Shown here in pieces: positions 1 through 21,807 of a DNA stretch of 64,000 bases (its first letter is position 1; each line of letters starts with the position of its first letter). The position numbers and the translations under genes are program-made. The stretch comes from Gemmatimonadota bacterium (GTDB taxonomy: Bacteria > Gemmatimonadota > Gemmatimonadetes > Longimicrobiales > Gaopeijiaceae): positions 1-64,000 of the forward strand of contig JAJDVT010000109.1 in assembly GCA_022826005.1 (NCBI GenBank). The letters are read 5' to 3'. The notes beneath the pieces are model-generated. The model was not told the DNA's origin. It worked only from the letters and a program-made list of their open reading frames with translations, and searched no databases.

Positions 1-23
1 TGATGCGGGTCCGTAGGGGCCGA

Positions 24-202
24 ACGAGGGTGTTCGGGAGTCCTCACCGGGGTGTCCGCCTTCCTCCGCGGGAGGTGTCCGCGACCTCAACGGGGGTGTC
101 CGGGGCTTCAACGGAGGTGTTCGGAACCTCGACGGGGGTGCTCCGGGGGCCGACGGGGGTGCAAAGTTGGTGCACGGGGGTGCCGTTTCCGTCGATTCTC
201 GC
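24..202. repeat. Degenerate 21-bp tandem repeat array
   Basis: Units share a 9-base core close to ACGGGGGTG followed by about 12 variable bases. The cores end at 32, 54, 77, 98, 119, 140, 161 and 182, so the last five intervals are exactly 21 bp and the earlier ones 22-23 bp. A further weak unit lies at 1-10, so the array probably continues left of the window. Because 21 is a multiple of three, both strands read as heptads: T-P-V-E on the minus strand and T-G-V on the plus strand. The minus reading frame stops at 44-46 inside the array, so a coding role is doubtful. It lies just upstream of the candidate RNA gene. Confidence 0.7.
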
Positions 203-263
203 CCTTTTTGGGGTCGATGAGGCCCTTTTGGGGCCATTCCGGGCCGCTCGGTCAAGAAAAGTG

Positions 264-292
264 TTGCGCTTCCCGACCTGAGGTGTTAACGT
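264..292 (+). promoter_or_regulatory. Candidate sigma70-type promoter for the structured RNA
   Basis: TTGCGC at 264-269 and TAACGT at 287-292 are separated by exactly 17 bp, which would place the transcription start near 299. The -10 box keeps the T, A and final T that matter most. Sequence around it is the least GC-rich stretch of the first 700 bases. The boxes are imperfect and the call leans on the terminator and hairpins downstream. Confidence 0.45.
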
Positions 293-298
293 ATTCAT

Positions 299-667
299 CC
301 GCCAGCGGAAGTGAAGGAGCCGCAAGGAGCCGGAACGGAAGCGGCGGAGGGGCAGAGGCGAGAGGCCCAGGAGGGGGCAACCCCGAGAGGGAGCGAGCCA
401 AGGCCCCAAGCGCTGAGGGCGCCGGCAACGGAGGCCCGACGCGGGCGCGGTTCCGAGTTCGGCGGAAGCCGCGACGGCTGCGAGGTCGCTGGACGCAGTC
501 GAGGGCTCCGGGAGACCGGGGCGCCCGGGCGGCGGAAACGCCGGACGGGAGAACGAGACGGGAAAACCGGCCGCCGCACATGGCGGCGCCGAAACGGAGC
601 TTCCCGGCTCGCCAGCGAGACGAAGCCCCCGAGCGGGTAGTGTGCTGCCCGCCGGGGGCTTCCTTTT
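299..667 (+). ncRNA. Large structured noncoding RNA, class not recognised
   Basis: No protein-like reading frame fits this segment, but it is dense in short perfect hairpins. Examples are GGGG-GCAA-CCCC at 373-384, CCGG-GAGA-CCGG at 508-519 and GGCG-GAAA-CGCC at 531-542, all capped by GNRA tetraloops. Others are AGCCG-CGA-CGGCT at 467-479, GCCGCC/GGCGGC at 570-587 and CTCG-CCAG-CGAG at 608-619. Unpaired linkers are purine-rich, as in large ribozyme-like RNAs. It starts just after a candidate promoter and ends in a strong terminator. I looked for RNase P, tmRNA and SRP RNA signatures and did not find them. IscB- or TnpB-associated guide RNAs are not supported because no such gene is next to it. 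Function unknown. Confidence 0.6.
622..667 (+). terminator. Strong intrinsic terminator
   Basis: GAAGCCCCC at 622-630 pairs perfectly with GGGGGCTTC at 654-662. Inside, GCGGG at 633-637 pairs with CCCGC at 648-652. The stem is followed directly by CCTTTTTCC. It ends plus-strand transcription coming from the RNA candidate. The 5' arm overlaps GAAGC at 622-626, which can instead pair with GCTTC at 599-603, giving two mutually exclusive folds. Confidence 0.8.
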
Positions 668-740
668 TCCCCCTGGCCCCCCGAACACCTTGGGGTGCCA
701 TCCCCGCTCAACCCTTTGGGCTCTCCCTTCCCGGTTAGGG

Positions 741-1031
741 TCAGGGCGGAGTGTGCTGCTGGCTTCGTGCGGCGGACATGATGCTCCAGATCAGGTTGCG
801 GATCAGCTCTTCGTCGAGTCCCGCCTCCCGCGCCAACTCCGCGGCCCGCCGCACGACCTGGGCTTCGCGGGGCGGATCCGTCACCGGAACCCCCAGGCTC
901 TCCTTCACGGCCCCGATCTCGCGCACCAGAGCTACCCGCTGCCGGATGATCTCGACCAGCTCCCGGTCGCACTCCATGATCTGCTCGCGGAGCCGCTCCA
1001 GCAGCTCGCGGTCGGAGTGCTGATCAGGCAC
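741..1031 (-). CDS. aroQ: Chorismate mutase, AroQ type
   Basis: This 96-residue protein matches the all-helical AroQ fold that converts chorismate to prephenate for phenylalanine and tyrosine synthesis. It has the family pattern of an N-terminal helix LRxxIxxxDRELVEIIRQR, then VREIGAVKESLGVPVTDPPRE, with the conserved arginines, lysine and glutamate of the active site. It is a free-standing domain with no prephenate dehydratase or DAHP synthase attached. The GTG start overlaps the end of the symporter gene by 8 bp, so it is probably translated from the symporter mRNA. That partnership is unusual and may only reflect operon packing. Confidence 0.85.
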   Translation of the reverse strand: MPDQHSDRELLERLREQIMECDRELVEIIRQRVALVREIGAVKESLGVPVTDPPREAQVVRRAAELAREAGLDEELIRNLIWSIMSAARSQQHTPP

Positions 1032-2490
1032 GGAGGTATTCGTCCACGTGCTCGCGGTCCTGCGGGGTGCCGGCCAGGCTGACGCCGATGAGCACCGGGA
1101 GGTGTACGACCAGCCCCAGAATGCCCTCGTGCATGCCGAGCGGCTTGAGCTCCGGGAAGAGGAAGAAGAACACGGACACCGCCGACCCGGCGAGCAGGCC
1201 GCTCAGTACTCCCGCGGTCGTCGCCCGTCTCCAGTACAGGGCGGCCACCATCGAGGGCATGAACTGGCAGATGATCCCGTACGAGGCGAGCAGCAGGTCG
1301 ACCAGGGAAAAGCCTTCATGGAGCGCCGAGAGGTAGGCGAGCCCTCCCACGGCGAGCACCAACACCCTCATCAGGGTTCGCTGCGCCCGGTCGGAGAGTT
1401 GCTTGAAGGGTTGAACGCCGTCCTCCACCGCCACCGAGCCCGCCCCGTGCAGCAGCGCGTCCCCCGTGGACATCGACGCCGACAGCGCTCCGGCACAGAA
1501 CAGTCCGACCACCAGCGCCGGCAGCTCGGAGCGCAGGATCAGGAAGGGCAGGATGAAGTCCGCCTGGTCCGGAGATTCCGGCAAGAGCACGCCCGCGAAG
1601 CCGATCAGAAACACCGGAATCAGAAAGAGCTGGAAGGTGGGGAAGAGGATCACCGTGCGGCGAATGATCTTGTCGCTTCTGGCCGTATAGGCCTTCATGA
1701 AGAGGTGCGGCCACATGGTCACACCGATCGCGCTAGCCAGAATCGCGGTCGAATAGGCTCCCCAGCTCCACGAGTTGCCGCTGCCGTCAAGTCCAGGCAG
1801 AGAAAGCAGTTCCGGGCGCTGATCGAGAATCTGCTCGAACATTGGCCCGACGCCTCCGTACATGCGGTACGGAAGATAGATCCCCAGCACCCAGGCGATC
1901 ACGAGCATGAAGACGCCCTGGAAGGTGTTGGTCCACCCCACCGCGGAGACGCCGCTCGCCAGGACGTAGACCATGACGATTCCGTACGCAAGCGCGGCCC
2001 CCGCCCACAGCGGGATGCTCCCCCCGGTCACCGCCTCGATCACGATTCCCGCCCCGCGCATCTGGATGGTCACGTAGGGGACGAAGGCCGCGAGCGTCAG
2101 CACGGCCATCAGGAGCGACAGCGCCCGCGAGGGGAAGCGTCCGACCAGCAGCTGGGCCTGGGTGACGAAGCCGAAGCGACGCCCGAGCGCGGCGACCCGG
2201 GGCCCCATGGCGTACCACGGAGCCATGCCCAGAACCCCGTACGTGAGGATGTAGAACGCGGCCGCGCCGCGGGAGTAGGCCCACCCCGGACCGCCCAGGA
2301 AGGCGAAGGCGGAGAAGACCGTCGCGCCGGTGATGAAGTACATGACCAGGAGGCCGAAGTCGCGGTCGCCGGCCACGTAGCCCTGGACGCTGCGGGATGC
2401 CCGCCGGCCCGCCACCAGTCCGACGCCGAGGGTGACGGCCAGGTAGGCGAGGATGATGACGGTGATCAGGCCGAACCGGTCCATCGTCAC
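1024..2490 (-). CDS. Sodium:solute symporter family transporter
   Basis: A 488-residue polytopic membrane protein of the SSS (SLC5-like) family, with about 13 hydrophobic segments. The first helix carries the family pattern LAVTLGVGLVAGRRASRS, and a sodium-site-like segment GATVFSAFAFLGGPGWAYS follows. Members import a small solute such as an amino acid, pantothenate or carboxylate with Na+. The substrate cannot be read from this sequence. The GTG start overlaps the stop of the upstream DUF3311 gene as GTGA; an in-frame ATG lies two codons later at 2484. The DUF3311-SSS order is a common pairing and supports a small auxiliary subunit. Confidence 0.9.
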   Translation of the reverse strand: MTMDRFGLITVIILAYLAVTLGVGLVAGRRASRSVQGYVAGDRDFGLLVMYFITGATVFSAFAFLGGPGWAYSRGAAAFYILTYGVLGMAPWYAMGPRVAALGRRFGFVTQAQLLVGRFPSRALSLLMAVLTLAAFVPYVTIQMRGAGIVIEAVTGGSIPLWAGAALAYGIVMVYVLASGVSAVGWTNTFQGVFMLVIAWVLGIYLPYRMYGGVGPMFEQILDQRPELLSLPGLDGSGNSWSWGAYSTAILASAIGVTMWPHLFMKAYTARSDKIIRRTVILFPTFQLFLIPVFLIGFAGVLLPESPDQADFILPFLILRSELPALVVGLFCAGALSASMSTGDALLHGAGSVAVEDGVQPFKQLSDRAQRTLMRVLVLAVGGLAYLSALHEGFSLVDLLLASYGIICQFMPSMVAALYWRRATTAGVLSGLLAGSAVSVFFFLFPELKPLGMHEGILGLVVHLPVLIGVSLAGTPQDREHVDEYLRA

Positions 2491-21723: not shown

Positions 21724-21807
21724 GCCGGGGTGGCGGAACCGGTAGACGCGAAGGTCTCAAAAACCTTTGCCCTTGCGGGCGTGAGGGTTCGAGTCCCTCC
21801 CTCGGCA
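21724..21807 (+). tRNA. tRNA-Leu (anticodon CAA)
   Basis: Acceptor GCCGGGG at 21724-21730 pairs with CCTCGGC just before discriminator A at 21807, with one G-U pair. The anticodon arm is AAGGT-CTCAAAA-ACCTT, giving anticodon CAA for TTG codons. A class II variable arm (GCCCTTGCGGGC region) follows, and the T arm is GAGGG-TTCGAGT-CCCTC. CCA is not encoded. Confidence 0.95.

Follow-up and report, generated by a model that had tools for sequence, protein, structure and literature searches.

Evidence for an uncatalogued structured RNA family of Gemmatimonadota with three long-range pairings, one of them involving the terminator loop

What kind of gene occupies positions 299 to 667 of the window, the 64,000-nucleotide stretch of Gemmatimonadota DNA analysed here? 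A preliminary description of its letters had proposed a structured RNA of no recognised class, distinct from RNase P RNA, tmRNA and SRP RNA. It had pointed to a search with Rfam covariance models and to compensatory base changes in homologues as ways of checking this, and had named a conserved protein as a finding that would speak against it. Every feature named in that description was found in place: the candidate promoter at 264-292 (TTGCGC, 17 nt, TAACGT), the terminator (hairpin 622-662, then a T run at 664-668) and the GNRA hairpins GGGG-GCAA-CCCC (373-384), CCGG-GAGA-CCGG (508-519) and GGCG-GAAA-CGCC (531-542). The gene and its signals are as follows.

299-667, plus strand: non-coding RNA gene of about 370 nt; the start is approximate and inferred from the promoter, the end is set by the terminator
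264-292, plus strand: promoter, with -35 element TTGCGC (264-269), a 17-nt spacer and -10 element TAACGT (287-292)
622-668, plus strand: intrinsic terminator, with stem 622-631/653-662, inner stem 633-637/648-652 and T run 664-668

Just upstream of the gene, window positions 23-161 form an imperfect tandem repeat with a period of 21 and about 6.5 copies (consensus AACGGGGGTGTCCGGGACCTC).

None of the 4227 families of Rfam 15 matched the RNA at the gathering threshold; the sole match in the whole window was a tRNA gene at 21724-21807. A search of window positions 1-1500 at E values up to 5 produced just two unrelated sub-threshold matches, and six distant homologous loci gave no match on the RNA at E values up to 1. 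The Rfam search suggested in the preliminary description thus returned no known family. In agreement with that description, the models for RNase P RNA (RF00010), tmRNA (RF00023) and SRP RNA (RF00169) did not match here, and the genome carries its own copies of these genes on other contigs (C33, C95 and C34, respectively). 6S RNA (RF00013) was also rejected, as its model gave no match and the covarying fold consists of five hairpins and three pseudoknots. A conserved protein was not found: only 2 of the 142 indels have a length divisible by three, and on neither strand does a frame stay open through all 20 homologues. No published description of the RNA was found in the open-licence literature, and Gemmatimonadota are not mentioned in PMC2864571. 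The RNA is new in the sense that it matches no known RNA family; its general kind, an orphan structured bacterial RNA, is already known.

The plus strand of region 293-667 folds at -210.9 kcal/mol (z = -4.5, with none of 100 dinucleotide shuffles as low), versus z = -1.4 for the reverse strand. The value of -4.5 indicates that the structure exceeds what the GC content (about 76%) would give. The parts of the fold are listed below.

298-348, plus strand: 5' domain closed by UCCGCC (298-303) and GGCGGA (343-348), predicted from the MFE fold and less certain
373-384, plus strand: GNRA hairpin GGGG-GCAA-CCCC of the second 5' domain, from the sequence and the MFE fold
446-473, plus strand: Pa hairpin, 446-454/464-473; its loop holds the 5' strand of PK1, UUCGG (458-462)
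475-501, plus strand: Pb hairpin, 475-481/495-501; its loop holds the 5' strand of PK2, UCGCUGG (486-492)
506-521, plus strand: Pc hairpin, CUCCGG-GAGA-CCGGGG with a GNRA loop, covarying in the genus set and in 85 homologues
524-549, plus strand: Pd hairpin, outer CCCG (524-527) and CGGG (546-549), inner GGCG-GAAA-CGCC (531-542), covarying in 85 homologues
559-606, plus strand: Pe0 helix, CGGGAA (559-564) and UUCCCG (601-606), enclosing Pe
570-587, plus strand: Pe hairpin, 570-575/582-587; its loop GCACAU (576-581) is one side of PK3

Together the predicted 5' domains would span 298-407 and are the less certain part; the G-run and the C-run of the 373-384 hairpin are kept within the genus. For the remainder, a manual structure of 409-619 that included two pseudoknots took the place of the default RNAalifold structure at the genus level. 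It showed 12 double-changed pairs and 29 double-changed cells, versus 10.9±3.4 cells after shuffling (0 of 500), and both pseudoknots were invariant within the genus. Two short hairpins of this first manual structure (helices 10 and 12) were dropped in favour of Pe0 once distant homologues had been seen. An extra helix, 441-445/608-612, was weakly suggested at the genus level.

Among 21 distant members aligned with MAFFT, 50 of the 67 pairs were double-changed (209 cells versus 85±7.5), with a covariation score of 0.416 versus 0.195±0.010. In the alignment of 85 homologues, which was fitted to the nested helices and favours them, and for a structure partly picked by eye on the very sequences scored, double changes were seen for 65 of the 67 proposed pairs, with 1119 cells versus 351±18 in shuffles that ignore phylogeny (0 of 500). 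The covariation score was then 0.537 versus 0.197±0.005, and sliding the partners by one column lowered pairing from 88.3% to 41-44%. At the level of single helices, five pairs of Pa were double-changed within the genus and all of its pairs across the 85 homologues, and Pb had 93.4% of its cells paired and 6 of 7 pairs double-changed. Pe0 displayed compensatory forms within the genus (for example CGGAGG/CCUCUG); across the larger set, double changes were seen in 5 of 5 of its pairs, in 6 of 6 pairs of Pe and, in the terminator hairpin, in 9 of 9 pairs of the outer stem and 3 of 3 of the inner one. Judged from these alignments, the covariation is decisive for a conserved fold. The compensatory changes sought in homologues are therefore abundant and, with the failure of Rfam models in the window and at six distant loci, they uphold the proposal of a structured RNA outside the recognised classes.

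As read from the aligned sequences, covariation shows five hairpins (Pa to Pe), the enclosing helix Pe0 and the terminator hairpin, tied together by three long-range pairings.

458-462 with 589-593, plus strand: PK1, Pa loop UUCGG to CCGAA in the segment after Pe
486-492 with 612-618, plus strand: PK2, Pb loop UCGCUGG to CCAGCGA just before the terminator
576-581 with 640-645, plus strand: PK3, a kissing pairing of Pe loop GCACAU with terminator loop GUGUGC

These pairings were encoded in none of the search models. Among the 85 homologues PK1 formed 357 of 425 possible pairs, versus 300±5.5 when partners were shuffled among sequences; the corresponding values were 499 of 510 versus 477.5±1.5 for PK2 and 217 of 340 versus 166±6 for PK3. 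Double changes were found in 5 of 5 (PK1), 5 of 6 (PK2) and 4 of 4 (PK3) pairs. Some members have strands that are divergent yet complementary: UUGGA/UCCAA and CAGGA/UCCUG for PK1, CGUCGG/CCGACG for PK2, and CAUC/GAUG and UACG/CGUA for PK3. In one homologue (L136), read by eye, Pe loop CUCAAGUG pairs with terminator loop CACUUGAG. In five others (L130, L139, L141, L145 and L149) the terminator hairpin has a UUCG-type or similar loop, to which the Pe loop, mostly GNRA-like, is no longer complementary. As their sequences read, the PK3 partners have been lost jointly in this subfamily. A second subtype, comprising the same five loci and L187, has an ACUGG/CCAGU-type PK2 and is without the PK3 kissing loops; in genome G049 it coexists with the main type.

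Covariation alone cannot separate pairing inside one molecule from pairing between two copies. OLE, ROOL and GOLLD are large ornate bacterial RNAs that are stand-alone or phage-borne and were long without known function; their complexes are held together by RNA only, through kissing loops and A-minor contacts, and some of their covarying pairs proved to be intermolecular (PMC12286853). The window RNA resembles them in being large and stand-alone and in having pseudoknots and kissing loops. It differs from them in having no Rfam match, other hosts, a shorter length and no viral carrier found, and in using its terminator loop in a long-range pairing. One reading, possible though unlikely, is that it too assembles by itself into homo-oligomers, in which PK3 or some other loop pairing would join different molecules. 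The three covarying loop pairings and several GNRA loops would suit such a complex; however, all three can also be drawn inside a single molecule, the RNA is shorter than GOLLD, and the PK3 partners are wholly lost in one subfamily.

The sequences flanking the fold indicate how the RNA would be made. In the alignment of same-genus homologues, TTGCG at -35 and TTA at -10 are invariant and the terminator hairpin is nearly so, the promoter (TTGCG, a 17-nt spacer, then a -10 that begins with TTA) and the terminator hairpin being the most constant parts. A generic scan for promoters and terminators picked up neither element of the RNA gene, because its thresholds were strict. Other homologues have TTGACN/TANNNT-like promoter elements at a consistent distance. 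The best TTGACA/TATAAT-like element scored at least 9.5 in 32% of homologues, versus 3.7% of shuffled upstream sequences, and such elements lie mostly 75-120 nt upstream of the model start. Because promoter and terminator are conserved, we infer that transcription of the window RNA starts at its own promoter and stops at the terminator. At six loci (L112, L125, L155, L156, L157 and L158) a sigma54-like TGGCACG-N4-TTGCA replaces the sigma70-like promoter upstream of the RNA; this -24/-12 element stands at a consistent distance in these six members of the window genome's family, which suggests that regulation differs by lineage.

To what extent is the RNA spread? A nucleotide search of 59 genomes found it in the window's genome and in 20 of the 22 other genomes of the genus, with one main copy each and 77-89% identity, and elsewhere as fragments only. 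The two exceptions, G009 and G011, had no match by BLASTN or by covariance models, which indicates that the RNA is not essential everywhere. With covariance model R1, strong homologues turned up in six further genera of the family, in seven genomes altogether; of 154 genomes from the order, model R2 matched 54, spread over three families. Model R3 was built from the MAFFT alignment of the 21 distant members, and of the 395 Gemmatimonadota genomes sampled it matched 115, in 53 of 138 genera, all in the window genome's class; the strict filters of these large searches may miss carriers, so that the carrier share is a lower bound. Carrier genomes have one to four copies, G049 having four copies of two subtypes. 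Both this phylum-wide distribution and the three pseudoknots go beyond what the preliminary description had noted. Outside the phylum, a search with strict filters and no positive control matched none of 198 genomes from the phylum to which a Hymenobacter record belongs. Viral contigs gave three chance matches of 17-21 nt and no viral carrier was found among them. A 20-mer of the terminator hairpin was rejected as a marker: an exact-pattern scan of all genomes returned many unrelated genomes, and 14 of these, likewise searched without a positive control, were unmatched by R3, so that the 20-mer alone is not diagnostic. Two copies (L212 and L213) lie about 24 kb apart on the 1.04-Mb megaplasmid NZ_CP007130 of Gemmatirosa kalamazoonensis.

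The neighbouring genes bear on whether the RNA might be a cis-acting leader or attenuator. In favour of this, a terminator closes the RNA, and at some loci the gene that follows shares its orientation. In the window, however, the next gene is a convergent chorismate mutase gene (PF01817), followed by a sodium:solute symporter gene (PF00474), and a likewise convergent RNase HI-like gene adjoins the RNA in 11 other loci of several genera (L123, L135, L137, L138, L140, L143, L144, L146, L148, L159 and L160). At these 11 loci the genes upstream resemble those for a lipoyltransferase and an E2 acyltransferase, and the one downstream resembles carA, all four names, RNase HI included, being read from sequence motifs and not from a profile search; this site is perhaps the ancestral location. 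The neighbours differ between lineages, which argues against a cis role. We consider a leader function highly improbable; the RNA gene is free-standing. We conclude with high confidence that 299-667 is a stand-alone gene of an uncatalogued structured non-coding RNA family of Gemmatimonadota, and this holds for the family, its non-coding nature and its architecture.

Since the folded shape is kept across many Gemmatimonadota, the RNA very probably performs a real job. One candidate role is suggested by 6S and Ms1, RNAs that bind RNA polymerase (PMC9130861). Like the window RNA, they come from stand-alone bacterial genes, are 200-300 nt or longer and are candidates for a housekeeping role across a phylum. 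Ms1 stands in for 6S RNA in Actinobacteria, and by analogy the RNA might bind RNA polymerase and regulate transcription in place of 6S RNA, a proposal to which we give little credence. It accords with the stand-alone gene and the apparently strong promoters of many members. With the Rfam 6S model, 40 close relatives gave no match. Across the phylum it matched 5 of 249 genomes; these are absent from the list of carriers matched by R3, a non-overlap expected by chance in about one of five draws. However, the model may miss a divergent 6S, and 6S RNA is a long rod with a central bubble, whereas the window RNA is unmatched by that model and has three pseudoknots and five hairpins without a long rod.

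It is rather unlikely that the RNA is a regulator that pairs with mRNA targets through exposed conserved loops, with stress-type control in some species. The six members with a sigma54-like instead of a sigma70-like element, and the several copies and two subtypes present in some genomes, would fit such a role, but the most conserved loops are engaged in pseudoknots.

The most likely and most economical reading is that of a trans-acting scaffold or protein-binding RNA; for action in trans as a scaffold specifically, we see about an even chance. Because the terminator hairpin belongs to the fold, the final shape would form only when transcription is complete. A compact particle of RNA, or of RNA and protein, would then act in trans by presenting conserved loops and the purine-rich strand that follows Pd to a partner; the RNA would not be a leader of a neighbouring gene. 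The terminator probably also functions within the mature fold, its loop kissing an internal hairpin while two other loops pair beside it, so that the end of transcription would complete a compact functional particle, possibly an oligomer.

Among other known RNAs, tmRNA and RNase P RNA are of similar length and also contain several pseudoknots, but both genes lie elsewhere in the genome and their models do not match the window RNA. The raiA-motif RNA (ModT) is described in PMC11706538 as a conserved structured RNA found in many species, with a role that came to light late; to that extent the window RNA, conserved and structured in many species, is like it, but the two occur in different phyla and the window RNA has no Rfam match. 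The window RNA represents a new structured class in which three long-range pairings covary, and it is widespread in a phylum that has received little study. Structure determination, gene deletion and pull-down can be aimed at it directly, and the two megaplasmid copies in the cultured G. kalamazoonensis make such tests practical. Its covariance model allows annotation of Gemmatimonadota genomes, and the subfamily that has lost both kissing loops together offers a natural experiment on the role of the PK3 contact. Large conserved RNAs of such kind earlier led to new biology, including RNA nanocages and RNA-polymerase regulators.

A stretch resembling the Pe hairpin plus CCGAAACGG, 30-31 nt long and 97% identical, is present at L028:719-749 (G000:C4) and L029:1501-1530 (G012:C160). 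Both stretches are intergenic and lie beside the 3' end of apparently the same gene in the two genomes; they are perhaps a degenerate copy or a shared module.
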